Shown here: positions 5,391 through 28,720 of the stretch, piece by piece | How the letters are laid out: every line of letters starts with the position of its first letter | How positions within the stretch are numbered: position 1 is the stretch's first letter | Assembly: GCF_004362055.1 (NCBI RefSeq) | Contig: NZ_SNXB01000008.1 | Coordinates: forward strand, 124,001-188,000 | Direction of reading: 5' to 3' | Source of the DNA: Flavobacterium sp. 245 | GTDB lineage: Bacteria > Bacteroidota > Bacteroidia > Flavobacteriales > Flavobacteriaceae | DNA length: 64,000 nt | Position numbers and translations under genes: made by a program | The notes under the pieces: model-generated | Databases searched by the model: none | Seen by the model: only the letters and a program-made list of their open reading frames with translations | Told to the model about the DNA's origin: nothing

Positions 5391-5533
5391 AAAAGAAATT
5401 TTTTGTCGCATAAGAGAATAATTTTTCAATTGTAGATTTTGTATATTGTCTCGCAGATTTTGAAATCATATGTACTATAAATAGTAAAAGATATTTTAAC
5501 CTAACCTTATAAATAAATCACACAGCGAATAGA

Positions 5534-6073: not shown

Positions 6074-7254
6074 AATTAAAAGTATTTTTACTGCTATTAA
6101 TAAATACAGTTGTTTACTCACAGTATACTTTAATTCCTGATGCCAATTTTGAGAGGGCTCTAATTGCAAAAGGTCACGATTCTGGTGATGTTGATGGAAA
6201 AGTACTTACAGAATCGATCAATAAAATAAAAGAACTTGAAATCTATACTTCAAAAATTTCAGATTTAACTGGAATTCAGGATTTTACTGCGTTAGAGGAT
6301 TTTAACTGTTCTGAAAATGAACTATCGAGCTTAGATGTTTCTAAGAATTTGAATTTGTGGAGATTGACATGTGTTAGAAATAAAATAACTAGTTTAAAAG
6401 TGTCTGAAAATTTGAAGTTAAGATATTTAGAATGCTACGATAACAAATTAACAATTTTGGATATTTCTAAGAATTTAAATCTTTCACATTTAGATTGTTA
6501 CAAAAATAAAATAATGAGTTTGGATCTTTCTAATAATTTAGAAATGTGGTATTTGGATTGTTCTTCCAATCAAGTTCAGTTTTTGGATCTTTCGAAGAAT
6601 AAGGATTTAAATAAGTTGTTTTGTAGAGACAATAAATTAAAAAGTTTGGATGTTTCGAAAAATGTCAATTTAACTATTTTAAACTGCTTTGTCAATCAAA
6701 TAGCAGTTTTGGATGTTTCTAAAAATTTAGAATTAGAGTTTTTAAGCTGCGCAGGAAATCAATTAAACAGTTTTGATGTTTCGAAAAATTTGAAGCTAAA
6801 ATTATTGGATTGCAGTAAAAATAAAATAAAGAATTTCGATACTTCAAAAAATGTAATCTTGTCGCAGTTATATTTAAATACTAATGAATTAAAGAAGATT
6901 GATGTTTCCAAAAATTTGAAACTTAATTTTCTAGGCTGCTCTGAAAATAAACTCTATGAATTGGATATTTCTAGAAATTTAGAGTTGTTCAATTTAGATT
7001 GCAGGGCAAATAAATTGCAACGTGTAGATATCTCTAAAAACTTAAAAATAGCATATCTCGATTGCTCTTCAAATAATCTTGTAAGTCTGAATTTAAAAAA
7101 TGGTAATTACGCTAATTTTGGTACAGTGTTGATAGATTTTAAAAACAATAAGAACCTTTCGTGTATTATTGTAGATAATGTTGATTATGCAAATTCTAAA
7201 TGGAGCTACTTTAAAGATCCAAATGTAAGTTATAGTTTGAATTGTAAAAGATAA
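6070..7254 (+). CDS. Secreted leucine-rich-repeat protein, 13 repeats
   Basis: 394 residues with a signal peptide (MKLKVFLLLLINTVVYSQ). After a short N-terminal cap come thirteen repeats of 21 residues with the pattern LxxLDCSxNxLxxLDVSKNL (about residues 75-346), encoded by 63-base units that have drifted apart in sequence. The Cys in each repeat is conserved except in repeat 10 (LYLNTNEL). A short C-terminal cap ends in a lone Cys. No type IX secretion sorting tail is visible, unlike many flavobacterial surface LRR proteins, so it may stay in the periplasm or outer membrane. Role probably protein or ligand binding; partner unknown. Confidence 0.9.
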   Translation: MKLKVFLLLLINTVVYSQYTLIPDANFERALIAKGHDSGDVDGKVLTESINKIKELEIYTSKISDLTGIQDFTALEDFNCSENELSSLDVSKNLNLWRLTCVRNKITSLKVSENLKLRYLECYDNKLTILDISKNLNLSHLDCYKNKIMSLDLSNNLEMWYLDCSSNQVQFLDLSKNKDLNKLFCRDNKLKSLDVSKNVNLTILNCFVNQIAVLDVSKNLELEFLSCAGNQLNSFDVSKNLKLKLLDCSKNKIKNFDTSKNVILSQLYLNTNELKKIDVSKNLKLNFLGCSENKLYELDISRNLELFNLDCRANKLQRVDISKNLKIAYLDCSSNNLVSLNLKNGNYANFGTVLIDFKNNKNLSCIIVDNVDYANSKWSYFKDPNVSYSLNCKR

Positions 7255-14748: not shown

Positions 14749-17046
14749 CTATTCGTAATATAATTGCGATGCGCTTATTTCCTGTTTTTCTTTCCCTTCT
14801 TGTTGGATAAAACAGTTTAAGGTTGTTCCGCCAATTTGATCAAAATAAGTGATGTTGATTTTGTGAAATCCTTTCTCCAATTTTACTGCTCCATAAGCTT
14901 CATTTAGCCAATGAATACCATCATTATTTACAATAAGTTCATTGTCTATAAAAAGCTTTGATCCGTCATCTGAAAGCGTTGAAATGGTGTAATTAGCAGT
15001 TTCCGGAATAAAGATATATCCGTCGAATTTTAATCCGATATAACGCTCCGTTTTAGTTTTCCATTTTTCACTGCTGACTGTTCCTTCAAAAATGCCGGAA
15101 TTAACAGGTTTGGTAAAATCTAAATCTTGAACCTGCTGAAATGTTCCGGTATAATAATCATATTTCAATCCGTTTTTAGTTGGTTTTATAGCTAATGCCG
15201 ATTTTAAATCGGGATTTCGGACCAATATTTTGCTGATAGAACTTCTTCGTCCGCTTGGATTGATTTGGACTGTCTTAATAATTCTATACTCACCTTTCGG
15301 GATATTTATGGTTGTCGGTTTGGTGTATGGTTCGGCGGTTTCATCTGGATTGTAGCCGTCAATTGTATAGAAAATCTGTCCTCTTTTGATTGTTGGTTTT
15401 AAATCTAAAATATATTTTGATGCAATTATGGCTGTTTCATTAGATCCAAAAGGCGTTGGCACTTTGTAAAGTCTTTTTTGCTGTTCTAATTTTTCTAAAT
15501 GATATGGCATCTGGTTCAAAATAAAATGATTGTAGTTTTTATTTTGAGGTTGGGTCCACGCAATTTCTGCCAAAGCAAATAATCGAGGGTAAAGCATATA
15601 ATTTAGTTTGGTAGGACTTGTCAAATATTCTGACCAAAGATTAGACTGCACGCCCATAATGTACTTTTGTTCTTCAACAGTCAAGCTGTCAACAGGAGTT
15701 GGATTGTAGTTGTAAATTTTTTCAACTGTTGTTAATCGCCCAATTGTTAAAGGTTCTTGCGGAGAATAGCCTTGGTTGTAATCCAGATAAAGAACTTGCT
15801 CCGGATTCATAATGACATTATGTTTTTGTTTCGCAGCACTTATGCCACCTGATTCGCCTCGCCAAGACATTACGGCTGCATTTGGTGCTAAACCGCCTTC
15901 AAGCATTTCATCCCAGCCAAGAATCTGTCTGCCATTTGCGTTTAGAAACTTTTCGATTCGAGTTGTTAAATAACTTTGTAACTCATGTTCGTTTTTCAAA
16001 CCTAAATCTTTGATTCTTTTTTGGCAATTCGGACATTCTTTCCATCTTGCTTTTGGACATTCGTCGCCACCAATATGAATGTATTTACTCGGAAATAAAG
16101 CCATGACTTCGGTTAAGACGTCTTCTAAAAAAGTGAAAGTTTCCTCTTTTCCGGCGCAAAAAATATCTTCAAAAACGCCCCATGTTTCTACAACTTTATA
16201 AGTTCTGTCTGGAAAGCATGATAAATTTGGGTAAGCCGTTACCGCTGCAGTTGCATGACCCGGCATTTCGATTTCGGGAATAATATTTACATAATGAGCT
16301 TCGGCAAATTTTACAACGTCTTTAATTTCTTCCTGCGTGTAAAATCCGCCATATGGATTTCCGTCAAAAAAAAGCGGTGATCTTTCAAATTTATTTCCAA
16401 CTAAAGTCTGTGCTCTCTTAGAACCCACTTCAGTTAATTTTGGATACTTTTTTATTTCAATTCTCCATCCCTGATCATCAGTTAAGTGCCAATGGAAATT
16501 ATTTAATTTATAACTAGACATTTGTGCGATAAAATCTTTTATAACATCGATTGAGAAAAAGTGACGGCAAACATCTAAGTGTAAACCTCGGTAAGCGTAT
16601 CGCGGCGCGTCTTCAATGGTTGTGCAAGGCAATTTTATTTCTTTTTTGTCCGATGGTTTATTTGGTAAAAGTTGTAATAAACTTTGGACAGCATAAAATA
16701 ATCCTTCTTCAGAACCTGTAACAATTATTTTTTTGGAAGAAATCGAAATTTTATAGGATTCTTTGCTTGTCGAAGGACTTTTGGTAATAAACAAAACTTC
16801 AATAGAACTCTTTTTTGCTAGAACATTTGCGTTTATAGCATCTTCAAAAATTTGTCCTGTTTTAAGTTCTTTAGCGCTGTATTTATTGTTCTCAAAAACA
16901 ACTTTTATTTTTCCATTCAAACTTATACTGTCGCCAGTCGCTTTATATGAATTTGGTGCAGGAATAATCGTAGTGTTTTGAGAAGCGTTTTGAGCTTTTC
17001 CGATAAAACAGCAAAATAGTATAAAGAGAAATATGTTTTTTTTCAT
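14749..17046 (-). CDS. Beta-N-acetylhexosaminidase (GH20) with PA14-like C-terminal domain
   Basis: 765 residues. Signal peptide MKKNIFLFILFCCFIGKAQ, then a GH20b-type domain (to about 150), the GH20 TIM barrel with the catalytic Asp-Glu pair in HIGGDECPK, and active-site Trp in NNFHWHLTDDQGWR and LGWDEM. After about residue 540 comes a chitobiase-type Ig-like segment, then a PA14-like domain (about 630-755; TISTLSDDGSKLFIDN). It removes terminal beta-GlcNAc or GalNAc in the periplasm or at the surface. It is divergent from a DeoR-type regulator, and its promoter carries the same TGCA-N7-TGCA palindrome as susC. Confidence 0.93.
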   Translation of the reverse strand: MKKNIFLFILFCCFIGKAQNASQNTTIIPAPNSYKATGDSISLNGKIKVVFENNKYSAKELKTGQIFEDAINANVLAKKSSIEVLFITKSPSTSKESYKISISSKKIIVTGSEEGLFYAVQSLLQLLPNKPSDKKEIKLPCTTIEDAPRYAYRGLHLDVCRHFFSIDVIKDFIAQMSSYKLNNFHWHLTDDQGWRIEIKKYPKLTEVGSKRAQTLVGNKFERSPLFFDGNPYGGFYTQEEIKDVVKFAEAHYVNIIPEIEMPGHATAAVTAYPNLSCFPDRTYKVVETWGVFEDIFCAGKEETFTFLEDVLTEVMALFPSKYIHIGGDECPKARWKECPNCQKRIKDLGLKNEHELQSYLTTRIEKFLNANGRQILGWDEMLEGGLAPNAAVMSWRGESGGISAAKQKHNVIMNPEQVLYLDYNQGYSPQEPLTIGRLTTVEKIYNYNPTPVDSLTVEEQKYIMGVQSNLWSEYLTSPTKLNYMLYPRLFALAEIAWTQPQNKNYNHFILNQMPYHLEKLEQQKRLYKVPTPFGSNETAIIASKYILDLKPTIKRGQIFYTIDGYNPDETAEPYTKPTTINIPKGEYRIIKTVQINPSGRRSSISKILVRNPDLKSALAIKPTKNGLKYDYYTGTFQQVQDLDFTKPVNSGIFEGTVSSEKWKTKTERYIGLKFDGYIFIPETANYTISTLSDDGSKLFIDNELIVNNDGIHWLNEAYGAVKLEKGFHKINITYFDQIGGTTLNCFIQQEGKEKQEISASQLYYE

Positions 17047-17105
17047 GGCTGGTTACGCTTCAGTTATTGAGATTACTGGCAAATTTGTATTTTAAAATTT
17101 ATTTC

Positions 17106-17120
17106 TGCAAAAAATATGCA
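17106..17120. promoter_or_regulatory. TGCA-N7-TGCA operator at the hexosaminidase promoter
   Basis: TGCAAAAAATATGCA. The nearest TTTGC -7-like element of the hexosaminidase gene has its G at 17080, 26 bases from the proximal edge of the palindrome. The two copies upstream of susC have the same form, with a distance of 27. It lies in the gap shared with the DeoR-type gene. Confidence 0.6.
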
Positions 17121-17243
17121 AAGCAATTTAGTGTATAAATGTCTTTAAAATTGGTTAGTTAACTTTTTTATTACATTGTGTTGTAATTTGTTTCGCAATA
17201 ATATTGCATTATTTGTTTACATTTGTTTAAAAAATATATTGGC

Positions 17244-18020
17244 ATGAATAATGAAAATGAAGTGGTAAATTACACTAAGGAAGAACGAAAAAATCTTATT
17301 TTAAAAGAGATTAACCTGCACACTCGTGTAAGTTTTGAAACACTTTCTGCCAAATTATTTGTTTCAGAAGATACTGTCAGACGCGATATTAATGAACTTG
17401 AAGCAGACTCTTTGTTGATTAAGGTGAAAGGTGGCGCGATGACAAAAGCGTACCATCATTCTTCATCAAATCAGACATATGCTGGCGAATCAAAACAGAT
17501 TATTGCGCAAAAAACGTTAGGACTTCTTCGTGACGGAATGGTTCTGCTAATTGGAGGTGGAACTACAATCAGAGAGTTTATTCGTTTAATTCCGAATGAT
17601 TTAAATCTTACCATTTTTACAGTCACAGTTTTATCTGCTGTTGAACTTTTGGATAAACCAAATGTCAAAATTATTATGATTGGCGGCAGTATTTCATCTT
17701 ACAGCCAAATGTGCGTGAGCGGCGATGTCTATAATCAGTTGGCCAATATTAAAGTCGATTTGTTAATATTAGGAACTAACGCCTTAGATATCGAAGGCGG
17801 TTTCTCAGATTCTGACTGGGAAACAGTTCAAGTTAAAAAAGCAATGATTCAGGCTTCTGAAAAAACCGCAATTTTGACTATTTCTGAAAAATTAGACACC
17901 GTTTTAAAAATGAAAATTGCCAACTTATCCGAAGTTGATTATGTAGTTACCGAAGTTGATCCGAGTGACGAGAAATTAAAATCGTATAAGAAGGCTGTTC
18001 CAAGCTTAGTTTTTATTTAA
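17244..18020 (+). CDS. DeoR/GlpR family transcriptional regulator
   Basis: 258 residues from the ATG at 17244 (an in-frame TTG at 17223 is less likely). N-terminal DeoR helix-turn-helix (about 15-70; SEDTVRRDINELE), then a DeoRC sugar-phosphate sensor domain (about 80-250) with IGGGTTIREF and the GGSISSYS loop. Such regulators respond to phosphorylated sugar intermediates, here possibly KDPG or a related sugar acid phosphate. It lies between the hexosaminidase and the catabolic operon and overlaps the dipeptidase stop by 4 bases, so it is the likely local regulator. Confidence 0.9.
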   Translation: MNNENEVVNYTKEERKNLILKEINLHTRVSFETLSAKLFVSEDTVRRDINELEADSLLIKVKGGAMTKAYHHSSSNQTYAGESKQIIAQKTLGLLRDGMVLLIGGGTTIREFIRLIPNDLNLTIFTVTVLSAVELLDKPNVKIIMIGGSISSYSQMCVSGDVYNQLANIKVDLLILGTNALDIEGGFSDSDWETVQVKKAMIQASEKTAILTISEKLDTVLKMKIANLSEVDYVVTEVDPSDEKLKSYKKAVPSLVFI

Positions 18021-19087
18021 TCCCAGTTTTTCATTAAAAAATTAATCCAGTTCTGGTGAAAGATTTTATCTAAATCTTCATCAGAATAACCATTATTTTT
18101 AAATATCGGAACCAATTTTTGCAAATCAGCAATGGTGTTTAAATCATACGGTGACTGTTCTGTGCCAAAAGCGCCGTCAAGATCAGAACCAATTCCGATA
18201 TGATCTGCATTTCCTGCCAATTGACAAATGTGATCCATATGTTTAAAAACCGTTTCTAAATTGCAGTTTGTCCCTTTTGGAGTAGAAACGCCTCTTTCCC
18301 AATTTGGAACAAGCATCCAAGCGTCTAAAGCACCGCCAATAACAGCTCCTCTCGAAATTAATGCCTTTATCATTTCATCGCTGTATTGACGATTATGGTC
18401 CACCAGACTTCTGCAATTATTATGACTTGCCCAAACTGGTCCATTATAGTGATCTAAGGCTTGCCAAAAAGCATCATCACATAAATGTGTTGCATCCAAA
18501 ATGATATTTAAACGCTCCATTTCTTTTAATAAATCAAGACCATTTTGATTCATTTTTCCCGTCGCATCAGTTCCATTTGCATAACGTCCAGGGCCATAAT
18601 GCGCGGGACCAATGGCTCGTAATCCGTAATTGTGCGCTTTTTCTAAATACGAAATATCAATAATAGAATCGGCGCCTTCTAAACTCAGAATGTAGCCAAT
18701 TGGTTTTTTATCATTTGGCGTTCCGTCATTCCATAAGTCAATTTGCTTTTGAAGCGTTTTTTTATCTGTAATCTGAATCATTTCTCCAGCTTCTTCCATG
18801 GCTTTGTACCATGTAATTTGCCCTTGCGTTTGTGCCCAAGCTTGCTCAGGAGAATTCCAACCCGGAATAATACTGTCTGGTTTTACAAATCGTGCAATTT
18901 GAGTAGCCACAACAATCCCAATATTGCCACGTCGCAAATCAGGAAATGAAACCGTCGCGCGCTCACGATCTGGTTTGTCTGTCATTCCTTTTTCTAAATG
19001 ACGCAAAGTTGCAACATCATTTCGTAAATCTCTATTCCATTCCATCGCATTCATGCTCAGGTCTAAATGGGCGTCTAGTATAAACAT
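18017..19087 (-). CDS. Membrane dipeptidase family M19 (renal-dipeptidase-like)
   Basis: 356 residues, no signal peptide. The metal site is visible as AHLD near the N-terminus, Glu in LSLEGADSI, His in DATHLCDD and WASHNNCRSL, and Asp in GIGSDLDGAFG. M19 enzymes are zinc amidohydrolases that cleave dipeptides, including those with a D-amino acid at the C-terminal side. It is the last gene of the minus-strand catabolic operon, 18 bases after the PLP enzyme. In that context it may hydrolyse an amide bond in the imported substrate. Confidence 0.9.
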   Translation of the reverse strand: MFILDAHLDLSMNAMEWNRDLRNDVATLRHLEKGMTDKPDRERATVSFPDLRRGNIGIVVATQIARFVKPDSIIPGWNSPEQAWAQTQGQITWYKAMEEAGEMIQITDKKTLQKQIDLWNDGTPNDKKPIGYILSLEGADSIIDISYLEKAHNYGLRAIGPAHYGPGRYANGTDATGKMNQNGLDLLKEMERLNIILDATHLCDDAFWQALDHYNGPVWASHNNCRSLVDHNRQYSDEMIKALISRGAVIGGALDAWMLVPNWERGVSTPKGTNCNLETVFKHMDHICQLAGNADHIGIGSDLDGAFGTEQSPYDLNTIADLQKLVPIFKNNGYSDEDLDKIFHQNWINFLMKNWD

Positions 19088-19105
19088 ATTCGTTTGAACT
19101 TAATT

Positions 19106-20221
19106 TTATATATTAATTTTTCTGCTTCGGGCGGCAACTTTCCATTCATCACAAATTTCATGTGCCGAATTTATAACTTGAACCGAATCATAAAGTGCGC
19201 AAGTTGGGCAGACATGATACGGAATTGCGTAAATAATATCGCCGATAGCATATTGATTTTTTCCTTGGTTTTCTAATATTAAATGCTCTTCTGAATGCGC
19301 TGTTGGAATCAGATTTTCATCATTTAAAATTAGTAATCGTTGATCGATTGGATTTTCTGAAGAAACTGCTTTGTATCCAACATCAATACAAAAGGTTGAT
19401 TTTGTTGGTTTTGAAATAATCGTTCCAACAATGACAAATGCAGGTTCGAATTTTTGTTCTGGAAGATGAATCGTATAATTGGAGTCCCAGAAAACAAAAG
19501 TTCCTGGACTGCATTCAACATTTTTTTCTGAAGCATAAAACGGAAATGTATTCGATCCACCTGCCACTATTTTTAGTTCATAATCCAGTTTTTCCTGAAT
19601 CGCTTTTAGCTTTTCGCTGACGCTGAAAAAAGAATTTGATGCAACCGCTGTTCGATGTTCTAAAGTTCCTTTTAAATGGCCGTCATAAATGTGAATTCCG
19701 GCAAAATGAATGTTTTTTAACTTTAGAATTTCGTCGATTAGAGTGATCCAATTTTCAGAAATTGAAATTCCGGTTCTGTTCATTCCTGTATTTAAATCCA
19801 GAAAAACAGTCAGCGATAAATCATTATTTTGAGCAATTTCATTTAAGGCTTTCGCCGAATCTAAATTGTCTACTATTGTTGAAAAAGTGCTTTTTGAGTA
19901 TTTCTGAATAAGAGAAATCCATCTTTCTTTTTTGTTTCCGACAAGCTGATAGGCCAGAAGAATATCCGAAATATTATGAATGGCTGCAAGTTCAGCTTCA
20001 GCAATTGTGGCGCATTTTATTTTATTGATGCCGTATGATTTGAACAAATTCAGAATTTCGCCAATTTTATGTGTTTTAATATGAGGCCTTAAATTTTGAA
20101 CTTTACCATTTACAGATTCAATCAGACGCTCGATATTTTGCTGCATACGATTTTCATAAACAGCAATAAACGGAGTGTCAACACGTATTTCGGAATTTAT
20201 TTTCCACCAATTTTCTTGCAT
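19106..20221 (-). CDS. D-threonine-aldolase/D-serine-dehydratase-like PLP enzyme
   Basis: 371 residues, alanine-racemase-type fold III. The PLP Lys is K49 in LRPHIKTHK, and the C-terminal metal site is seen as SEEH plus IPYHVCPTC. Family members act on D-threonine, D-serine or D-3-hydroxyaspartate. D-Glucosaminate dehydratase of Pseudomonas has been reported as related to this group (from memory). The gene sits 3 bases after a KDPG aldolase and with KDG kinase, GntP and RidA, which makes an ammonia-lyase giving KDG an attractive role. That role is inference; D-threonine aldolase remains possible. Confidence 0.85.
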   Translation of the reverse strand: MQENWWKINSEIRVDTPFIAVYENRMQQNIERLIESVNGKVQNLRPHIKTHKIGEILNLFKSYGINKIKCATIAEAELAAIHNISDILLAYQLVGNKKERWISLIQKYSKSTFSTIVDNLDSAKALNEIAQNNDLSLTVFLDLNTGMNRTGISISENWITLIDEILKLKNIHFAGIHIYDGHLKGTLEHRTAVASNSFFSVSEKLKAIQEKLDYELKIVAGGSNTFPFYASEKNVECSPGTFVFWDSNYTIHLPEQKFEPAFVIVGTIISKPTKSTFCIDVGYKAVSSENPIDQRLLILNDENLIPTAHSEEHLILENQGKNQYAIGDIIYAIPYHVCPTCALYDSVQVINSAHEICDEWKVAARSRKINI

Positions 20222-20224
20222 AAC

Positions 20225-20872
20225 TTAGTTTCTTGTTTTTTCTACAACTTCAATTAAATCCTGAAAAGCTTTTAATGACTGTTCGTAATTTAAATTTAAA
20301 AGCATTTCTTTTGAAAACAAATTAGAACCAATTCCAACGCATACAACACCAGATTTGAACCAAGATTTTAAATTGCTTTCTTCTAAAGTTACGCCTCCAG
20401 TTGGCATTATTTTTAAATTAGGAAATGGTGCTCTTATTGCCTTTACATATCCTGGTCCACCAATTTTATCAGCTGGAAAAAGTTTTACAACTTCAGCTCC
20501 TAATTTGTTGGCATGAAGTATTTCGTTTAAAGTAGCAGCGCCGGGAATCCAGTAAATGTTATTTTTAAAACAGTAGTTTCCAATTTCAGGATCAGTATGC
20601 GGGCAAACAATACAGTCAGCACCTAATTGCTGAAAAATTTCGGCATCTTCAACGCTTAAAATGGATCCAACGGCTAGTTTAACATCTAAATTATTGGCTT
20701 TTCTAAACGCAATCATTTGGCTAAACACATCTTTGGCGTCATCTGCACGAGCGGCAAATTCAATAATTTTTATTCCTGAATCAGCGGCTGCTTGCAAAAT
20801 GATTTTTGCTGTTTCAATGTTGATTTGTGTTACTAGCGGAAGCACACCTTGAGCTTTTAAAATACTGTACAT
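20225..20872 (-). CDS. eda: KDPG/KHG aldolase
   Basis: 215 residues, class I aldolase TIM barrel. The Schiff-base Lys is in VVKLFPAD; the phosphate-binding loop is MPTGGV and the active-site Glu lies in the early FAARA/VGSI region. It splits 2-keto-3-deoxy-6-phosphogluconate into pyruvate and glyceraldehyde-3-phosphate. It follows the kinase with a 16-base gap and precedes the PLP enzyme by 3 bases. Confidence 0.93.
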   Translation of the reverse strand: MYSILKAQGVLPLVTQINIETAKIILQAAADSGIKIIEFAARADDAKDVFSQMIAFRKANNLDVKLAVGSILSVEDAEIFQQLGADCIVCPHTDPEIGNYCFKNNIYWIPGAATLNEILHANKLGAEVVKLFPADKIGGPGYVKAIRAPFPNLKIMPTGGVTLEESNLKSWFKSGVVCVGIGSNLFSKEMLLNLNYEQSLKAFQDLIEVVEKTRN

Positions 20873-20888
20873 ATTTTGGGGTAATTTA

Positions 20889-21920
20889 TTATCTGTTAAT
20901 TCTGTTACTTGAACCGTTTTGCATAAAATGATTTATTTCGGCAAGACTGGTTATGGCAAAATCGCCATGTATACTTTGTTTGATCACACCGCAGGCTGTT
21001 GCCCACTCAATGCATTCCTGACCCGATAATTTATTGGATAAACCATAAAGCAATCCGGCATTAAAAGCATCACCAGAACCAATCTGGTCTGTAACAGCGT
21101 GTATTTTGTGTTCTTTGGTTTCGTAAAAATTACCTTCATGCATTAATAAACCTTTGTATAAATGTGCCGGTCCGTCTGATTTTCTAAAACTCATTGCGAG
21201 TGTTTTTAGAAAAGGCATTTCTTTTTTTAGTAATTCAAACGTTTTTTGAAAACGATCTGCGTCTGATTCTTTTTTGTCGGTTTTTATTCCGAAGTAAATT
21301 TCGATTGCGTCCAAATCAGCGACAGTAATAGTACTATATTGAAGCAAATCGGGCATAATTTCAGAAGGTTTTTTTCCGTATTGCCATAATTTGGAACGAT
21401 AATTAAAATCAGAAGAAATTGACAATCCTTTTTTGTGCGCTGCCAAAATCCCTTCTTTGCAGACAAGTCCAGCTTCATAAGAAACGCCTGGACTGATTCC
21501 GGACCAGTGAAAATGAGTTGCATCTTTTAAAGCTTCATCCCAATTAATCTGATCTTTTTGAATTGTTGCAAAAGAGGAATTGGTTCTGTCGTAAATAACC
21601 TGCGATTGTCTGATCTGATTTCCCGATTCAACAAAATAAAGTCCTAAACGTTCACCGCCATAAACACACTTTGAAGTGTTTACTTTGTATTTTTGAAGTT
21701 CGTTTATAGCTAATTGGGCCAAATCATTTTGCGGTAATCTTGTAATATAATCGGTTTGAATTCCGAGTTGGGAAAGTAAAACACAAACATTTGCTTCGGC
21801 ACCACCAACATGTATTTTTATTTCATTGGCCTGGGTAAACCTATTTCCATCAGCAACACTCATCCGAAGTAATAATTCTCCGAAAGTTGCAATTCTTGTT
21901 TGTGACGTATTTGTATTCAT
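20889..21920 (-). CDS. kdgK: 2-keto-3-deoxygluconate kinase (PfkB family)
   Basis: 343 residues. PfkB signatures: VGGAEANVCVLLSQLG near the N-terminus and DQIGSGDAFNAGLLYGL near the C-terminus, with the catalytic Asp in GSGD. In the context of eda and a gntP-type permease, phosphorylation of KDG to KDPG is the best reading. It is separated from ridA upstream by 193 bases filled with a nested inverted repeat. Confidence 0.88.
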   Translation of the reverse strand: MNTNTSQTRIATFGELLLRMSVADGNRFTQANEIKIHVGGAEANVCVLLSQLGIQTDYITRLPQNDLAQLAINELQKYKVNTSKCVYGGERLGLYFVESGNQIRQSQVIYDRTNSSFATIQKDQINWDEALKDATHFHWSGISPGVSYEAGLVCKEGILAAHKKGLSISSDFNYRSKLWQYGKKPSEIMPDLLQYSTITVADLDAIEIYFGIKTDKKESDADRFQKTFELLKKEMPFLKTLAMSFRKSDGPAHLYKGLLMHEGNFYETKEHKIHAVTDQIGSGDAFNAGLLYGLSNKLSGQECIEWATACGVIKQSIHGDFAITSLAEINHFMQNGSSNRINR

Positions 21921-21935
21921 GTTTATTGTTTTTTT

Positions 21936-22102
21936 GCCACAGATTACACAGATTAAAATGATTTATTAGTGTTGTGGTTAATTTTTCGCCACGAATTTCA
22001 CGAATTTTCACTAATTGATTGCGTGAAAAATAATTCGTGTAAATTCGTGAAATTCGCGGCAAACCTGAACTTCTAATCTTTTTAAATCATTTAATCTGTG
22101 GC
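21936..22102. repeat. Nested inverted repeat between ridA and kdgK
   Basis: Outer arms: GCCACAGATT..AAATGATTT from 21936 and AAATCATTTAATCTGTGGC at 22084-22102, the left arm carrying a 10-base extra unit (ACACAGATTA). Inner arms of about 29 bases: 21988-22016 (GCCACGAATTTCACGAATTT..) and 22032-22060 (..AAATTCGTGAAATTCGCGGC). A single-layer relative of the outer arms lies at 58739-58786. No ORF of note. Confidence 0.8.
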
Positions 22103-22113
22103 ATAACTTTTCT

Positions 22114-22581
22114 TTAATATAATTCAAAAACGGCTTCGACTTCAACAGGAATATTATCTGGTAAAGAACCCATTCCAACTGCACTTCGAACTCCAATTCC
22201 GTTTTCCTGACCCCAAACTTCAGCAAATAATTCGCTGCAACCGTTTATCACGTAAGGATGTCGCAAGAATTCACCATTGCAGTTCACCATTCCAAGTACT
22301 TTAATAACTCTTTTGACTTTATTCAAGCTTCCAAAATTGGTTACTATTGTAGAAAGCATCGTTAATCCGACTTGTCTTGCTGCTAATTTTCCTTCTTCGA
22401 TATCCATATCATCGCCAATTCTACCGATGATTAAGGATTTGTCATCACGAACCGGACCGTGACCAGACAGGTATAAATATTTACCATCAACTAAATAAGG
22501 TTTGTAAATGCCAAGAGGCTGTGGAGCTGGCGGTAATGACAAACCAAGTGTTTCAAATTTTTCTTGAGGTAATAAATTCAT
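22114..22581 (-). CDS. RidA family deaminase
   Basis: 155 residues, YjgF/YER057c/UK114 fold. The substrate-carboxylate Arg is in GVRSAVGMGSLP and the family end motif VEVEAVFEL is present. RidA proteins hydrolyse enamine/imine intermediates released by PLP-dependent dehydratases, giving the keto acid and ammonia. Its place in this operon supports a PLP dehydratase/ammonia-lyase step by the fold-III enzyme encoded downstream. It starts 4 bases after the permease. Confidence 0.93.
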   Translation of the reverse strand: MNLLPQEKFETLGLSLPPAPQPLGIYKPYLVDGKYLYLSGHGPVRDDKSLIIGRIGDDMDIEEGKLAARQVGLTMLSTIVTNFGSLNKVKRVIKVLGMVNCNGEFLRHPYVINGCSELFAEVWGQENGIGVRSAVGMGSLPDNIPVEVEAVFELY

Positions 22582-22585
22582 GATA

Positions 22586-23905
22586 TTAATGTATTATAGA
22601 GTTTAAAATAAAAACGAAAATGATTCCTAAAACAGATACTAAAGATTCCATAACGGTCCAGGATTTAAAAGTGTCTTTTAGGCTGATATTAAAATATTCT
22701 TTGAACATCCAAAAGCTTGGGTCGTTTACATGCGAACACATAAGACTTCCGGCTCCAACTGCCAATACTAATAAGTTGGGGTCCAGACCGTTCAATTGTA
22801 ACAAAGGTAATAAAACGCTGGCAGTCATTAATCCGGCTGCGGTGGCTGAGCCAACACAAACACGAATAATTGCCGCCATTAGCCAAGCGAGTAAATAGGG
22901 ATGAATATTTGTTTGAGTTAAAGCCGTAACAATTGTTTCGTTTACACCGCTTACAATCATAACTTCTTTTAGACTTCCTGCTCCACCAACAATTAAAACA
23001 ATCAAGGCAACATCTTTTATGGCAAGGGCGTAGTCATCCATCACAGAAGCTAGACTTCGATTCATTCTTGTTCCTAATGTATAAGTACAAAGAAGAAGGG
23101 AAATCAGCATAATCATACTAGGTTCTCCAATTGTTTTACAAAGATTATTTACTGCTTCATTTGTTGTAATTAATGGCAGTAAAGAAGTTATAGTCAAACC
23201 AAAAACAGGAAATAAAGCCGAGAATAAACTGATCGAAAAACTCGGCAGTTTGCCGTCATTTACAACTTCTTCAACGTTTATTATTTCATGATCTGATTCG
23301 GTTTTAATGTTTTTTAGCAAATTCGAAAACAACAATCCTGCTATAAAAATGGTTGGAATCGCAATTATGATTCCGTAAACTAAAACAAGGCCAATATCAG
23401 CTTTTAAAATACTGCTCAAAGCCATTGGAGAAGGATGTGGTGGCAAAAAACCGTGTGCTACTGAAAGCGAGGCCAGCATTGGGATTCCGAGATATACTTT
23501 TGAAAGCTTAAATTGATGGGCTACTGAGAAGATTAAGGGTACTAACAAAACAAAACCAACACTATAAAATAGAGGTATCCCAACAATAAATCCGGTAATC
23601 ATTAATCCTAGGCGAACGTGTTTTTTGCCTGTCCATCCCATAACTGTTTTAGCAATGACATTTGCCGCGCCCGAGGAGACAGCAAGTTTGCCAATGCAGG
23701 TTCCAAAAACAATAATTAATGTAATTGAACCCAACATTTCGCCCAAACCCTTTTGAACTGTTTGCGACAAAGTGTTTATTGGCAGACCTAAAAATAGGCC
23801 TGCCAGCAAAGCTGTAATGATAAAGGCAATAAACGGATTGATTTTAAACCAAGCAATTTGAAGGATTAAAAATGCAATACATGCCGTAAGAATTATAATG
23901 CTCAT
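22586..23905 (-). CDS. GntP family gluconate-type permease
   Basis: 439 residues with about 12-14 transmembrane helices. Family-like segments are present: FGTCIGKLAVSSGAANVIAK, GFLPPHPSP and the C-terminal MCSHVNDPSFWMFKEYF. GntP members import aldonates such as gluconate, 2-keto-3-deoxygluconate or glucosaminate-like sugar acids across the inner membrane by proton symport. Third in the susC-susD-gntP order, with 14- and 4-base gaps to its neighbours. Confidence 0.93.
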   Translation of the reverse strand: MSIIILTACIAFLILQIAWFKINPFIAFIITALLAGLFLGLPINTLSQTVQKGLGEMLGSITLIIVFGTCIGKLAVSSGAANVIAKTVMGWTGKKHVRLGLMITGFIVGIPLFYSVGFVLLVPLIFSVAHQFKLSKVYLGIPMLASLSVAHGFLPPHPSPMALSSILKADIGLVLVYGIIIAIPTIFIAGLLFSNLLKNIKTESDHEIINVEEVVNDGKLPSFSISLFSALFPVFGLTITSLLPLITTNEAVNNLCKTIGEPSMIMLISLLLCTYTLGTRMNRSLASVMDDYALAIKDVALIVLIVGGAGSLKEVMIVSGVNETIVTALTQTNIHPYLLAWLMAAIIRVCVGSATAAGLMTASVLLPLLQLNGLDPNLLVLAVGAGSLMCSHVNDPSFWMFKEYFNISLKDTFKSWTVMESLVSVLGIIFVFILNSIIH

Positions 23906-23919
23906 TATCTAATTTTTTA

Positions 23920-25449
23920 TTATTTATCCCACCAGATTCTAGTTGTGAAATTATCTTCGCCCTGACGCTTAACGGCTTCTGCTAAGTTAACTGAATTAAC
24001 AGAATATTCACTGGTTGGATATTTGAATCGTCTTGGAATTGTGCCATTTGTAACATTTCCAGGGAAATTTACCGGAACCAAAACAGGATATCCAGTTCTT
24101 CTCCAATTTGAATATACTTCTTGTTCATCTACAAAAAGCGCCACATAAATCTGTGTATGAATTTGATTCATTTTTGCATCAAATGAACCTGCAACATTAA
24201 AAGGATTTGCCGTTAAATAAGGCGTTGCATCCGTTATGGCATAACCAGCGCCATAAATTGCCATGTTTAAGAACGAAGCTTTTACTCCTTTTTCGTATAA
24301 ATCTTTATCAGTTTCATTAGTGTACCAGCCTCTTGCGGCAGCTTCGGCTAGTAATAAATTGGTTTCAGCATTGCTTATTATCATAAGCGGTGCATCATAT
24401 TTGAAAACCGTACTTTGGTTTGGTTCAGAATAAGTGCCTTGTTCAACTGGAGTGGGAGCAGTTTTAGTTCCGTTAGGGAAACCTTTTTGTACAGCAAGAG
24501 AAGTATTTTGAGTTGTTCCCTGCCAAACTCCGGCATAAACGCTGATTCTAGGATCGGCAGTTGATTTTAATAAATCGATAAATGTTTTAGCTAATTTTCC
24601 GCCTTCTACATTTTTTTGGCCGTATGATCCTGCTGTAAAATCTTGTCTTCTTGAATCAAATCCAACAGGGTTTCTGTTAATGTCATTTGGTCCGTCAGTA
24701 TATTTAATTACAGCATTATCAGTTCCGTTTAGGATGACACCTCCTGCAATAGCTTTTGTCACCCAAGTTTTAGCCAAAGCTGGATCAACTTTAGTTAACC
24801 TCATTCCCAAACGAAGCATTAAAGAATAGGAGAATTTTTTCCATTTTGCGATATCGCCGTCATATAAAAAGTCTGCTTTTCCAAAACTTGTTTTTGATGC
24901 ATCCAAAGCCGTTGCTGCTTCATCAAGTTCTTTTAGCAAATCTTTATAAATTGATTCTTGAGAATCGTATTTAGGAAGAAAAATGGCAGAACTGTTTGCT
25001 TTTGCGGCCTGAGAATATGGAATATCTCCATACAAATCGGTTAGCCTGTGATACAAATAAGCTTTCCAGATTCTGGCAATATTGAGTTTGTTGCTGTCGT
25101 TAGGGGTGTTTTTTAAGGCATCAATAACAATTTCAGTTTCGTTTATTCCTGTTGGATACGCCTGATTAAAATAAGCGGAGTAATAAACCTCGTTGCTTAA
25201 ATATTTGTCTCCGGCGCCAGAAGCTTCTTTGTATGTTGCGTAATGCTGTAAAATGCCACCACATTCCAAAATATTTGTTGCAAAATAATTGTTGTTTAAT
25301 CCGTCCAGCTGCGCTTTGCTGAAAATGTAATTTGGATTTGGTTTTTCAACAACATTCGGATTGGTATTGATTTCTTCAAAATCTTCGGTGCAGGATGTCA
25401 TACTTGCTAAAAGTATTCCTGCCATATATAAAAAGGTTAGCTTTTTCAT
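23920..25449 (-). CDS. SusD/RagB-like outer-membrane lipoprotein
   Basis: 509 residues. Lipoprotein signal with lipobox MTSC (Cys near residue 20), then the all-helical SusD-like domain with TPR-like segments (IARIWKAYLYHRLTDLYGDIPYS, LLLAEAAARGW). It belongs to the shorter SusD-like_2 type. It sits on the cell surface as the lid of the SusC pore and binds the ligand. It starts 11 bases after susC. Confidence 0.93.
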   Translation of the reverse strand: MKKLTFLYMAGILLASMTSCTEDFEEINTNPNVVEKPNPNYIFSKAQLDGLNNNYFATNILECGGILQHYATYKEASGAGDKYLSNEVYYSAYFNQAYPTGINETEIVIDALKNTPNDSNKLNIARIWKAYLYHRLTDLYGDIPYSQAAKANSSAIFLPKYDSQESIYKDLLKELDEAATALDASKTSFGKADFLYDGDIAKWKKFSYSLMLRLGMRLTKVDPALAKTWVTKAIAGGVILNGTDNAVIKYTDGPNDINRNPVGFDSRRQDFTAGSYGQKNVEGGKLAKTFIDLLKSTADPRISVYAGVWQGTTQNTSLAVQKGFPNGTKTAPTPVEQGTYSEPNQSTVFKYDAPLMIISNAETNLLLAEAAARGWYTNETDKDLYEKGVKASFLNMAIYGAGYAITDATPYLTANPFNVAGSFDAKMNQIHTQIYVALFVDEQEVYSNWRRTGYPVLVPVNFPGNVTNGTIPRRFKYPTSEYSVNSVNLAEAVKRQGEDNFTTRIWWDK

Positions 25450-25460
25450 TTCTCTTCAAA

Positions 25461-28400
25461 TTAAAATTTAACATTTAAGCTTAAACCAAAGCTTCTTGTT
25501 TTAGGCAATCCAAATTGCTCTACACCTTGCGCATTTCCTGCACTAAATACAGATTCTGGATCAACATTTGGTGTTTTCTTATAAAGGATGAATAAATTTC
25601 TGGCAACAAAAGAAACAGAAAGACTCTGAAGTTTTGCCAATGCTTTTATTCTTTCAATTGGTAATTGATAACCAACAATTACTTGTCTCAATTTGATAAA
25701 GCTTGCATCATAAATGAAAGTCGAAGAAATGTTTCGTAAACCGTCATAATAAGTTCTTAAGTTTTCTGGAGCAATTACCATGTTTACAGGGTTTCCGTTA
25801 GTGTCAACTCCCGAAATTGGCAATCCGGTTTCACGGCCTTCTAAAGTCAGTTTAGTTAATCCCATACGAGTTCCATATAAATCTGTTCCAGAATATAAGC
25901 TTCCGCCAAATTTCCCATCAATTAAAAAGCTGAATGATATTGCTTTGTATTTAAATTCATTGCTGATTCCAGCTCCCCAAGGATGAACTCCTTGTCCTAA
26001 TTCTTCTAGCGGGCCTCGTGCAATGCTTGCAGATCCTCCGCTCACATTATAAACTGTATTTCCATTAGCATCTTTTAATGGTTTGTAACCTTTTATAATG
26101 CTGTAAGGACGTCCAACATCACTTGTAATAGTAACATATCCATTTACAGAAGTAGCCATCGTAATAGAATTCAAATCATCTGTAAGTGCTTGAACGGTAT
26201 TTTTGTTGTACGATCCGTTGAAAGTGGCATCCCATGAAAAATCTTGATTGCTGATGATTTTTCCTGTAAGTAAGAGTTCAACACCTGTATTTTTCATTTT
26301 TCCAAGATTCAGTAGAGCCGTATTTGCTCCTGAACTTGTTGAAATCGTTGTTTCAACAATATCATTTGTAGTGGCGCGGTTGTACCATGCAAAATCAACA
26401 TTTAATCGGTTATTGAAAAAACCTAAATCGGTACCAATTTCAAATGTTGTAGAAGTCAGTGGACTTAAAGTTGAATTTGGAACTCTGCTGCTTGTTGGTC
26501 CTTGTAACTGTTGTCCGTTATGTCCTCCCTGAACCATTGAATACGATTGATTTAAAGCATAAGGATCTGGAGTTGCTCCTCCAACTTGAGCCCAAGAACT
26601 TCTTAGTTTTGCAAACGAAACCCATTCAGGCATTTTTAATAAATCGGAAACAATTATACTTGTTCCTACTGAAGGATAAAATACCGTATTGTTTTCTGCA
26701 GAAAGCGTAGAGAACCAATCTTGACGTCCAGTGAAATTTAAAAATATGACGTTTTTATAATCGAAGTCTGCAGCGCCATAAACAGAATTTGTTTTTGTTT
26801 TTCCGTACGGATAGGAATACGTAAGCGTTGTTAAATTGCTTAAAGCATAAAAATCATCTAATACATATCCAGATCCTTCAACTTTAGTTTCGTCTCTCAA
26901 TGTAGTTCGGGAGTTTACACCAACTAAGGCATTTAAAGAGAAATCTTTGTAGAAGTTCTTTTTAGTATAATTTAAAATTGCTTCGGTATTTAAATTTGAA
27001 AGTTTCATTCTAGAACCTTGTGCATATCCAACAGGATTATTTAATGTAGTTTTCGGAATATATCCAAAGAACTCATAATCGGTATAATCTTGTCCGATTC
27101 GGCCTTGAAGAAAAAGATCTGGTGTAAAATTCAGTTTTACATTCAGCATCCCAATAAAACGATTTTTGGTATCGCTGTTTTTAATTTTATTGACAACAAA
27201 ATAAGGATTTGTTGCAACGGCAACGGGATTCCAAGCCTCTTCAATTCCGTTTTCATCATAACCTGGAGCCAGATTTCTAATGTCAACTGTGTTTGCAATC
27301 ATATAAGTTCCCCAGTTTGCATTTGCCTCAGCATCAGAAACTGTAGGTCGGTTTGCTGATTTTTCTAAATTGTATTGTGTTACCACGTCAAATTTCAACC
27401 AATCAGTCAGGTTTACATTACTTGCCAAGTTGAATGTTTTACGGCTAAAGCCAGAATTTGGCAAAATGCTTTCGTTTTCTAGGTTTGAAAATGAAAGGCG
27501 TCCAGTTGCTTTTTCAGTTCCTCCAGATAAAGCAATCGAATTAATAAAAGTAGTTCCGGTTTCGTAGAAGTTTTTGATGTTGTTTTTTTGTGCTACATAA
27601 GGTCGGGCAACACCATCGAACTGAACAACATTTGTTCCGTCCATTTTTGCTCCCCACGACCAGCGCCCGTCAGCAATGGCTTCAGCTTGATTAGCTGGTT
27701 TTTGTCCGTTGTGGCCAGAACCATACTCGTACTGCCAATCTGGAAAAATAGATGGAGTTTCAAAAGTGAATGAGCTATTATATTCAATTCCAATGCCTTT
27801 TTGGGCAGTTCCTCGTTTGGTTTGAATTAAAATAACCCCGTTCGCAGCGTTGGCGCCATACAATGCCGCAGCTGTTCCTCCTTTTAAAACGGTGATAGAT
27901 TTGATGTCATCAGGATTGATTACCGCTGTTCCGTCACCTCGATCTACATTGATTCTGGTAGATCCTGGGCCGTTTCCAATACCAGGCAAGTTAAGCTGTG
28001 TATTGTCGATTGGCAAATCGTTTACCACGTACATTGGCTGATTATTTCCGTTTAAAGATCCGTTTCCACGAATTACAACACGGCTTGAACCATTAGGACC
28101 GGTTGCAGTACTGCTTACGTTAACTCCGGCAATTTTTCCAACTAATGCATTGGTAATATTGGCTTCTTTTGCTTTAGTAAATTCAGTCCCTTTTAATTCA
28201 GTAACAGCATATGAAACTGCTTTTCCGCTTTTTTTAACTCCCAGAGCGGTTACTAAAACCTGATCCAGAACATTTTCTGCAGGTTTTAATTTTATTACTA
28301 AATCTTTTGTATTGTCTAATTTGAATTCTAAAGTTCCATAACCCATATAAGAAATCACAATATGGGTTTCGTTTTCAGGTACGTTTAGTTTAAAATTTCC

Positions 28401-28616
28401 ATTTTCATCTGTTATGGCAGCAATTTTAGGATTGTTCTTTGCGTAAATTGTTGCTCCAGCAATTGGCATTCCGTCGTCTTGACCTAGAACTTGGCCCGAA
28501 ATTTCAGTTTGATTGCTTTTCTGTTCAAAGAGATGCTTTTTTATTGCAGTCTCTTTTGCATTTGCAGAGAAAATTATTCCTCCAACAAGTACTAATGAAA
28601 TTAGCTTTGTTTTCAT
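25461..28616 (-). CDS. SusC/RagA TonB-dependent outer-membrane transporter
   Basis: 1051 residues from the Met at 28616, chosen because it gives a signal peptide (MKTKLISLVLVGGIIFSANA); the frame is open 45 bases further upstream. After the signal come a carboxypeptidase-regulatory-like domain (about 40-120; ISGQVLGQDDGMPIAGATI), the TonB plug (about 125-240; VVIRGNGSLNG, LYGANAANGVILI) and a 22-strand barrel ending in KTRSFGLSLNVKF. It imports the substrate captured by SusD. First gene of the minus-strand catabolic operon. Confidence 0.95.
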   Translation of the reverse strand: MKTKLISLVLVGGIIFSANAKETAIKKHLFEQKSNQTEISGQVLGQDDGMPIAGATIYAKNNPKIAAITDENGNFKLNVPENETHIVISYMGYGTLEFKLDNTKDLVIKLKPAENVLDQVLVTALGVKKSGKAVSYAVTELKGTEFTKAKEANITNALVGKIAGVNVSSTATGPNGSSRVVIRGNGSLNGNNQPMYVVNDLPIDNTQLNLPGIGNGPGSTRINVDRGDGTAVINPDDIKSITVLKGGTAAALYGANAANGVILIQTKRGTAQKGIGIEYNSSFTFETPSIFPDWQYEYGSGHNGQKPANQAEAIADGRWSWGAKMDGTNVVQFDGVARPYVAQKNNIKNFYETGTTFINSIALSGGTEKATGRLSFSNLENESILPNSGFSRKTFNLASNVNLTDWLKFDVVTQYNLEKSANRPTVSDAEANANWGTYMIANTVDIRNLAPGYDENGIEEAWNPVAVATNPYFVVNKIKNSDTKNRFIGMLNVKLNFTPDLFLQGRIGQDYTDYEFFGYIPKTTLNNPVGYAQGSRMKLSNLNTEAILNYTKKNFYKDFSLNALVGVNSRTTLRDETKVEGSGYVLDDFYALSNLTTLTYSYPYGKTKTNSVYGAADFDYKNVIFLNFTGRQDWFSTLSAENNTVFYPSVGTSIIVSDLLKMPEWVSFAKLRSSWAQVGGATPDPYALNQSYSMVQGGHNGQQLQGPTSSRVPNSTLSPLTSTTFEIGTDLGFFNNRLNVDFAWYNRATTNDIVETTISTSSGANTALLNLGKMKNTGVELLLTGKIISNQDFSWDATFNGSYNKNTVQALTDDLNSITMATSVNGYVTITSDVGRPYSIIKGYKPLKDANGNTVYNVSGGSASIARGPLEELGQGVHPWGAGISNEFKYKAISFSFLIDGKFGGSLYSGTDLYGTRMGLTKLTLEGRETGLPISGVDTNGNPVNMVIAPENLRTYYDGLRNISSTFIYDASFIKLRQVIVGYQLPIERIKALAKLQSLSVSFVARNLFILYKKTPNVDPESVFSAGNAQGVEQFGLPKTRSFGLSLNVKF

Positions 28617-28685: not shown

Positions 28686-28720
28686 TGCATTTTTTTTGCA
28701 CAAAATGCATTTTTTTTGCA
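28686..28720. promoter_or_regulatory. Tandem TGCA-N7-TGCA operators upstream of susC
   Basis: Two identical 15-mers, TGCATTTTTTTTGCA, at 28686-28700 and 28706-28720, spaced exactly 20 bp. Their centres would lie near -41 and -61 of the predicted transcript, a layout typical of activator sites. A third copy is at the hexosaminidase promoter (17106-17120). Confidence 0.65.

Follow-up and report, generated by a model that had tools for sequence, protein, structure and literature searches.

A Flavobacterium operon that may take up and catabolise amino-sugar acids, a possible Bacteroidota equivalent of the marine ong pathway

The closest described system to the locus reported here is the ong pathway for oxidative chitin utilisation in Pseudoalteromonas prydzensis ACAM 620 and other Gammaproteobacteria. 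According to its description (PMC9537276), the pathway proceeds via a lytic polysaccharide monooxygenase (LPMO), TonB-dependent receptors (TBDRs), the glycoside hydrolase family 20 (GH20) enzyme OngA and the sodium:solute symporter (SSS) family transporter OngIT. OngB, of the D-aminoacylase type, deacetylates N-acetyl-D-glucosaminate (GlcNAc1A), and OngC converts D-glucosaminate (GlcN1A) to 2-keto-3-deoxygluconate (KDG), with KdgK following; OngD, a RidA protein of no known role, is essential, and OngR is a regulator of the MurR/RpiR family. A survey of 2022, queried with ong homologues, reports the complete pathway in Gammaproteobacteria and one Betaproteobacterium only (PMC9537276). Two other chitin systems are known, namely the hydrolytic ChiUL locus of Flavobacterium johnsoniae, with chitinases, chitobiase and a predicted glucosamine-6-phosphate deaminase (PMC7426924), and a different route, via glucosaminate-6-phosphate, proposed for haloarchaea (PMC12343721). 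No mention of glucosaminate dehydratase, or of glucosaminate in Flavobacterium, was found in the open PMC literature, where GlcNAc1A was met together with Bacteroidota in one listed work, on marine chitinolytic isolates. Here we describe an operon of Flavobacterium sp. 245 that resembles the ong pathway in outline; it lies in a stretch of 64,000 nucleotides (positions 124,001 to 188,000 of contig NZ_SNXB01000008.1), hereafter termed the window, to which all coordinates refer.

Genes were called as the open reading frames (ORFs) of the window, and families were assigned by Pfam and NCBIfam profile searches. An original prediction, made from the sequence alone, had named ten genes, eight on one strand with a DeoR regulator and a GH20 enzyme beside them; ORFs, Pfam and NCBIfam agree with it on all ten, so that its observation is confirmed, and its interpretation is partly supported, as described below. 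The genes, including one for an enzyme dependent on pyridoxal 5′-phosphate (PLP), are as follows.

14749-17046, minus strand: GH20 beta-N-acetylhexosaminidase with a PA14 domain (PF00728, 402.5 bits)
17223-18020, plus strand: deoR, DeoR-family repressor (PF08220 and PF00455)
18017-19087, minus strand: M19 'membrane dipeptidase' family protein (PF01244, 160.9 bits)
19106-20221, minus strand: PLP enzyme of fold type III, D-threonine aldolase/D-serine dehydratase (D-TA/DSD) superfamily (PF01168 and PF14031)
20225-20872, minus strand: eda, aldolase for 2-keto-3-deoxy-6-phosphogluconate (KDPG) or 2-keto-4-hydroxyglutarate (KHG) (PF01081; PDB 8di1 and 1wa3)
20889-21920, minus strand: kdgK, 2-keto-3-deoxygluconate kinase (PDB 2afb, E 2.5e-60)
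22114-22581, minus strand: ridA of the PF14588 type (over cut-off), proposed enamine/imine deaminase
22586-23905, minus strand: gntP, permease of the gluconate:H+ symporter family (TIGR00791, 460.7 bits, over cut-off)
23920-25449, minus strand: susD, SusD-like_2 lipoprotein (PF12771)
25461-28616, minus strand: susC, SusC/RagA TonB-linked outer-membrane receptor (TIGR04056, 620.7 bits, over cut-off)

The order of transcription on the minus strand is susC, susD, gntP, ridA, kdgK, eda, PLP enzyme and M19, susC being counted from the first ATG at 28616 in an open frame that extends to 28661. Intergenic gaps in the operon are 3-18 bp (16 bp for kdgK-eda and 3 bp for eda-PLP gene), with the sole exception of the 193 bp between ridA and kdgK. 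The deoR gene is convergent with M19, overlapping its end by 4 bp, and divergent from GH20.

We regard it as somewhat probable, at about 0.58, that this locus is an uptake-and-catabolism operon for a 2-amino-2-deoxy-aldonate derived from N-acetylglucosamine (GlcNAc); the substrate would most likely be GlcNAc1A, as the oxidised end of a chito-oligosaccharide, or free GlcN1A. SusC and SusD (SusCD) would carry the oligosaccharide across the outer membrane, the GH20 enzyme, which by eye has a signal peptide, would cleave off beta-linked N-acetylhexosamine in the periplasm, and GntP would import the acid. In the cytoplasm, the M19 hydrolase would strip the N-acyl group, and the PLP enzyme, as a D-glucosaminate ammonia-lyase, would dehydrate the D-configured beta-hydroxy amino acid. 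RidA would help to hydrolyse the enamine, yielding KDG and ammonia, and KdgK and Eda would convert KDG to pyruvate and glyceraldehyde-3-phosphate.

This reading is supported because KdgK and Eda match solved enzymes and adjoin the PLP gene in the operon. KdgK residues 8-343 align with the KDG kinase 2afb, and the NCBIfam KDG kinase models match KdgK below their cut-offs; for Eda, the matches are 8di1 (E 1.3e-42) and 1wa3 (E 2e-34), the latter a KDPG aldolase. It is also supported because the proposed steps equal those of the ong pathway, OngC leading from GlcN1A to KDG (PMC9537276).

The metal site of the PLP enzyme reads H336-V-C338, that is, H-x-C. K49, which we take from the fold to be the Schiff-base Lys, H336 and C338 are invariant in all 30 rows of its clade (8 Flavobacterium loci, 20 of the 28 loci from other Bacteroidota, and two plasmid copies). 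H-A-C is found at this position in D-threo-3-hydroxyaspartate (D-THA) dehydratase 3wqc, whose PDB variants H351A and C353A mark the same residues, and in chicken D-serine dehydratase 3anu, and H-P-C in 3gwq and in the OngC-like, deaminase-type protein of a Vibrio locus, L097, described below. Aldolases differ, having, as read from the alignment, H-V-D in 4v15 and 7dib and H-C-D in 6qkb (a fourth aldolase found, 7yqa, was not included). A 48-row tree united the 30 rows in one clade (98/98), to which two proteobacterial rows attach basally (100/100). This clade lies outside the aldolase group (100/95) and is well separated from 3anu and 3wqc, which were joined by L080 (100/97). The OngC-like L097 protein paired with 3gwq (100/100) on a long branch; because of the long-branch warning, no relations at depth are claimed. 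The enzyme thus resembles the zinc-type dehydratases of D-serine and D-THA in fold, Schiff-base Lys and H-x-C site and differs from them in clade. The separate clade together with the dehydratase-type site makes ammonia-lyase chemistry likely, and we regard the protein as a likely dehydratase-type (ammonia-lyase) enzyme on the strength of its sequence. No member of known activity was found in its clade. At position 267, Thr is present in all 8 Flavobacterium rows and Arg in 21 of the 22 other clade rows.

It is highly improbable that the enzyme is instead a D-threonine aldolase or 3-hydroxy-D-aspartate aldolase with unrelated neighbours. Besides sharing the fold, the aldolases do give the best raw sequence score: 4v15, a D-threonine aldolase, is the closest single PDB sequence by phmmer (E 2.3e-27), followed by other aldolases and dehydratases, and the best NCBIfam model is BhcC, at 117 of the 690 bits needed. 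The structure-based search that the original prediction had called for likewise had 4v15 as its top match, ahead of 3gwq, chicken D-serine dehydratase and D-THA dehydratase. AlphaFold modelling with 13 close Flavobacterium sequences gave poor models (mean pLDDT 58.6 for the PLP enzyme and 48.3 for M19), and all Foldseek matches of the PLP model had a TM of about 0.5 and an rmsd of about 10-11, so the ranking speaks to the fold only, not to function. Against an aldolase stand the H-x-C instead of H-x-D site in 30 of 30 rows, the separation from the characterised aldolases and the dedicated KDG genes in the operon. The ammonia-lyase that the original prediction had proposed, forming KDG from a 2-amino-2-deoxy-aldonate, gains support from the H-x-C site and the parallel with OngC (PMC9537276), the enzyme grouping with neither D-threonine aldolases nor D-serine dehydratases.

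The ong pathway was represented in our comparison by L097, on a megaplasmid of Vibrio sp. THAF191d, which encodes GH20, KdgA, KdgK, SSF, RidA, Amidohydro_3, PLP enzyme and RpiR proteins and looks like a full ong cluster, identified by gene content and not by ACAM 620 sequences. The L097 record is almost without annotation, and the locus was reached via a weaker second match of the PLP enzyme in the Vibrio record that also holds L087. The latter (H13), the best Vibrio match to the PLP enzyme, was rejected as OngC, having an H-x-D site and no ong partner among the ten surrounding proteins scanned. Among the D-aminoacylase relatives on plasmids, no further ong cluster was recognised in the matches listed (40 of 61).

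Both loci combine TonB-type outer-membrane uptake, GH20, a secondary transporter, a metal-dependent amide hydrolase and a regulator of their own with a fold-type III PLP enzyme, RidA, KdgK and, in Vibrio, a KDPG aldolase. The families differ: SusCD in the window versus TBDRs, GntP versus an SSS transporter, M19 versus the D-aminoacylase OngB, PF14588 versus PF01042 for RidA, and DeoR versus MurR/RpiR. The PLP clade lies apart from the OngC-like protein, and no orthology to OngC was found in this comparison, made with the Vibrio L097 protein and not with ACAM 620 OngC; the window locus holds M19 and GntP, and neither an OngB-type amidohydrolase nor an SSS transporter. Identity between the window and L097 is 21% for the PLP enzyme, 22% for KdgK, 27% for Eda and 36% over 339 aa for GH20, and RidA matches at E 0.009. 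Since the window proteins are this distant, the locus is ong-like in outline and not a member of that pathway; it is best read as a Bacteroidota counterpart to this marine route, using mostly other families or subfamilies. OngB has been tied to amino-acid deacetylases (PMC12017989), and in view of that kinship an amidase of a different family at the corresponding step would be less surprising.

The amide bonds cleaved by M19 enzymes are those beside a free carboxylate on a D-carbon, and L-D dipeptides are among the known substrates. The closest solved relative of the window protein is 3fdg (E 1.3e-20), and H7, D9, E137, H163, H201, H222, R233 and D302, which we take, after renal dipeptidase, to be metal ligands, catalytic or carboxylate-binding residues, are kept in all 17 PLP-linked M19 proteins (the window's and 16 others). 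By eye it has no signal peptide and would therefore act on what GntP imports. As GlcNAc1A is an N-acyl-D-amino acid of the type cleaved by M19 enzymes, and as the locus has no deacetylase other than this candidate, a deacetylase role fits better, and the protein is proposed to be an N-acyl-D-amino-acid amidase acting as a GlcNAc-aldonate deacetylase. In the open PMC literature, no work on an M19-type deacetylase naming renal dipeptidase was found. The original prediction had the M19 protein as a true dipeptidase that frees a peptide- or amino-acid-linked amino-sugar acid imported by SusCD. This gained no support and appears distinctly improbable: the active-site residues are kept, including the Arg that presumably binds the dipeptide carboxylate, but a protein lacking a signal peptide would meet only GntP cargo, the SusD belongs to the family found in the GH18/GH20 and GH92/GH125 loci of its own genome, and we know of no natural peptide-linked amino-aldonate.

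Those relatives of SusD within the genome are 45% identical, beside GH92/GH125, and 36% identical, in a polysaccharide utilisation locus (PUL) with GH18, GH20 and a NagB-like gene. The latter, L111, which resembles ChiUL, contains the SusD of two SusCD pairs, GH18, GH20 and the NagB-like gene; no PLP enzyme, RidA, KdgK or Eda was present among its nine proteins scanned. The window locus thus shares SusCD, of the same SusD family, and GH20 with the ChiUL type.

A draw of 60 genomes close to the source genome gave 5 with the PLP gene (own included), and a phylum-wide draw gave 119 of 395 at E<=1e-10, with a break in score between 38 genomes at E<=4.7e-69 (10 Flavobacterium including its own, 28 others) and the next at 8.5e-30. 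Altogether, 42 genomes carried the PLP clade, 14 of Flavobacterium (own included) and 28 of other Bacteroidota, and 26 Flavobacterium loci were compared (the window, 12 named loci and 13 from further genomes). The best named match of the PLP gene is F. resistens (92%). Gene order was identical in all 12 named loci, which had been retrieved via the PLP gene. Of the 14 Flavobacterium genomes with the PLP gene, counting the source genome, 8 share this order, and the other six have no susC, susD, kdgK or eda at the locus. Over the 26 loci, SusC, SusD, KdgK and Eda were all present in 20 (long loci) and all absent in 6 (short loci), which retain GntP, RidA, PLP enzyme, M19, DeoR and GH20 in the same place beside sdhB. 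As SusCD and KdgK/Eda occupy two separate spots in the operon, they appear to have been gained or lost as a working unit, and their all-or-none presence suggests that outer-membrane uptake is tied to KDG use. Copies of this KdgK and Eda at least 75% identical occurred only at this locus, in 8 of 56 genomes searched (the 42 with the PLP clade and 14 Flavobacterium genomes without the PLP gene). A search of the short-locus genomes for KdgK and Eda gave no further copies near in sequence to those of the operon; a housekeeping-type pair of about 40% identity is present there. Some KdgK-like and some Eda-like gene was present in 41 of the 42 PLP-clade genomes, G331 being the exception for both, and in 9 of the 14 Flavobacterium genomes without the clade, counts that ignore kinship. 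A close locus (L016) is carried by F. johnsoniae strain CI04, relative to which the PLP gene is the most diverged core gene (77%, versus 94% for M19 and 99% for RidA).

The ridA-kdgK gap adjoins the point at which the short loci are without kdgK-eda. Most of it (21932-22106) consists of two nested inverted repeats with 32-nt arms, 88% and 78% complementary, the core word of which occurs once within the window.

The operon and GH20 carry a common palindrome of the form TGCA-W7-TGCA, at the following places in the window.

17106-17120: palindrome TGCAAAAAATATGCA, proposed operator, in the deoR-GH20 gap
28686-28700: palindrome TGCAAAAAAAATGCA, proposed operator, copy 1, upstream of susC
28706-28720: palindrome TGCAAAAAAAATGCA, proposed operator, copy 2, upstream of susC, 20 bp from copy 1

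The pattern TGCAAAAAWWATGCA occurred three times in the window, compared with 0.01 expected, and in exact form three times in the 5.29 Mb genome, all at the locus (reversed control pattern, one); with W7 left free, five places were found, three of them at the locus (reversed control, three). Allowing one mismatch at most, the susC-side site was present in 25 of the 26 Flavobacterium loci, and in the 26th, L083, a pair lies just beyond the compared stretch (G008:C7:162898 and 162918). At the same threshold, all 20 long loci had the GH20-side site, 18 of them in perfect form, as against one of 6 short loci (L099), the chance of a site per region being 0.5-11.5% by shuffles. Thus, both the SusCD side and the GH20 side have the palindrome in all 20 long loci, and GH20 mostly lacks it when SusCD-KdgK-Eda is gone.

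The palindrome also precedes a nagP-like gene (NF046060, 457 bits, below the cut-off of 625) and a nagB-like gene (TIGR00502, 257 bits, above the cut-off of 236.9). All 25 nagB-like copies of at least 85% identity listed for 35 genomes were surveyed, G004 being left out, as contig ends interrupt its closest copy. With one mismatch at most, 13 of the 25 nag loci had the site before the nagP/nagB-like genes (L113-L118, L121-L124, L126, L128 and L131), compared with 1.15 expected from shuffles. By genome, the nag site was present in 12 of 13 PLP-bearing genomes (exception G079) and one of 4 without the PLP gene (G083, where the site is present without this PLP gene). In the source genome, the nagP-side site, on contig C4, has one mismatch, and two further close copies have no site (L118-L120); six nagB-like deaminase/PIG-L fusions in all were found in this genome at E<=1e-150 (contigs C4, C10, C11, C12 and C13). 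In an alignment of four upstream stretches of nagP, the palindrome is immediately preceded by a conserved TACTTTTG that resembles a Bacteroidota -7 box. As the operon and GlcNAc-type genes carry the same rare site, the site speaks for an amino sugar whichever regulator binds it. A repressor would act at these sites, probably the DeoR protein; a LacI-type gene lies near nagP, and its product could bind the palindrome instead. The GH20/GlcNAc link of the original prediction is strengthened by the common palindrome at GH20, the susC operon and the nagP/nagB-like genes.

Two off-locus places in the source genome were set aside. A W7 palindrome before the second susC of the chitin-type PUL (G000:C13:93816) raised cross-regulation of that PUL, which was rejected as chance, no palindrome just upstream of the closest SusC relatives in other genomes being among the sites listed, which covered neither G301 nor one site of G278; the other (G000:C2:436551), inside an open frame, was likewise taken as chance.

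The same pathway could instead serve another sugar, N-acetyl-D-galactosaminate, D-galactosaminate or a further 2-amino-2-deoxy-aldonate being converted to 2-keto-3-deoxygalactonate (KDGal) and used by a dual-specificity KdgK and Eda. GH20 enzymes act on both GlcNAc and N-acetylgalactosamine, and KdgK also matches the bifunctional KDG/KDGal kinase models, below their cut-offs. However, its best solved match bears the name KDG kinase and the common palindrome stands at GlcNAc-type genes, nagP-like and nagB-like, and we consider this version improbable.

Outside Flavobacterium, 28 loci were inspected as 18-kb stretches. M19 was near the PLP gene in 16, adjacent or nearly so, RidA in 14 (13 when counted by ORF clustering) and GntP in 6. 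The GntP-RidA-PLP-M19 core was whole in 6 loci and partial in 12 more, and plasmid copies carry GntP-DUF4833-RidA-PLP-M19 in Parabacteroides distasonis and RidA-PLP-M19 in Hymenobacter. Neither KdgK nor Eda was near the PLP gene in any of the 28 stretches. The conserved neighbourhood for which the original prediction had proposed a survey was thus seen for the core, whole or in part, in some of these loci, and was not seen for kdgK and eda beyond Flavobacterium or in the six short loci.

These counts bear on a serious, if unlikely, rival, in which the operon is a utilisation module for D-serine, D-threonine or another D-beta-hydroxy-amino acid, with kdgK-eda and SusCD as passengers. M19 would act on L-X-D-X dipeptides or N-acyl-D-amino acids to release the D-amino acid, the PLP enzyme would be a zinc-type D-serine/D-threonine dehydratase, and RidA would remove the enamine. 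The lack of KDG genes in all 28 stretches, where M19, RidA and GntP recur (all three together in 6), and in the six short loci favours such a module, as do the H-x-C site shared with D-serine dehydratase, the known activity of M19 enzymes on L-D dipeptides and the inclusion of the D-serine transporter DsdX in the GntP family. It leaves unexplained why the operon has a KdgK and an Eda of its own, why these are present or absent together with SusCD, and why the palindrome stands at GH20 and the nagP/nagB-like genes. The window GntP, moreover, scores higher with the gluconate transporter model PRK14984 (398 bits) than with the DsdX model (234 bits), both below cut-offs, and is proposed to be an amino-aldonate importer.

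Several points weigh against the amino-sugar-acid operon. Genes of one operon need not share a pathway; with the PLP gene elsewhere lacking KdgK and Eda, the enzyme may originally have acted on a plain D-amino acid, and in 10 of the 28 loci none of M19, RidA and GntP is near the gene. To our knowledge, no M19 enzyme deacetylates GlcNAc1A. The low identity of the PLP enzyme to the OngC-like L097 protein counts here as well, and OngC itself also deaminates D-Ser and D-Thr (PMC9537276). No LPMO_10 gene (PF03067) was found in the source genome, one of the 42 PLP-clade genomes having it (G004) and none of the 14 others; the source cell is therefore not known to make GlcNAc1A itself, and if the operon does serve amino-sugar acids, the oxidised ends would have to be supplied by other organisms or arise through a different oxidation of glucosamine or GlcNAc. 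The 20-to-6 pattern of long and short loci reflects one or two events, not many: a tree of GntP, RidA, M19, SdhB and DeoR needs two changes, or possibly one. Five of the 25 nag loci had been reached via the palindrome, the nag genes being examined for that reason (the site is present in 8 of the 20 others), and the palindromes of the nag loci, these being orthologous, do not count as independent events.

Among 20 neighbour proteins scanned for a substrate hint in the 28 loci of other Bacteroidota, no common theme was found; GH63-like, PAP2, aminotransferase III, ceramidase-like, sulfatase and other proteins were met. In L049 and L050, one gene lies between M19 and the PLP gene, neutral-ceramidase-like in L049 and a relative of it by clustering in L050, with a class III aminotransferase and a 3HCDH-type gene upstream. 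In L068, a non-Flavobacterium core locus, the gene after M19 (5340-6953) encodes a sulfatase whose C-terminal domain is of the N-sulphoglucosamine-sulphohydrolase type. On a plasmid of the haloarchaeon Haladaptatus salinisoli (L092), a sodium:solute symporter, an H-x-C D-TA-type PLP enzyme and a D-aminoacylase lie side by side, an OngIT-OngC-OngB-like trio. The IncI1-type E. coli plasmid pEC6563-NDM5, with blaNDM-5, has a D-TA-type PLP gene, an M20 peptidase, RidA and a major facilitator superfamily gene adjacent to one another (L091).

Judged by sequence comparison, the locus consists mostly of proteins different from those of the sole worked-out pathway of this type, that of marine bacteria. 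If it serves amino-sugar acids, the fate of LPMO products would be wider than the 2022 survey could see, since a search with ong homologues could miss such loci (PMC9537276), and a function would be at hand for the Bacteroidota pair annotated 'D-TA family PLP-dependent enzyme' and 'membrane dipeptidase'. A broader picture, which we put forward tentatively, is that Bacteroidota independently built a pathway for C1-oxidised chitin ends with an M19 deacetylase and a new clade of PLP ammonia-lyases, that Flavobacterium scavenges LPMO fragments made by others, and that throughout the phylum, also in its gut members, amino-sugar acids or D-amino acids are handled by the GntP-RidA-PLP-M19 core. On the main reading, the gene set of this soil Flavobacterium probably takes up oxidised chitin fragments and turns the acidic amino sugar into ordinary carbon food.

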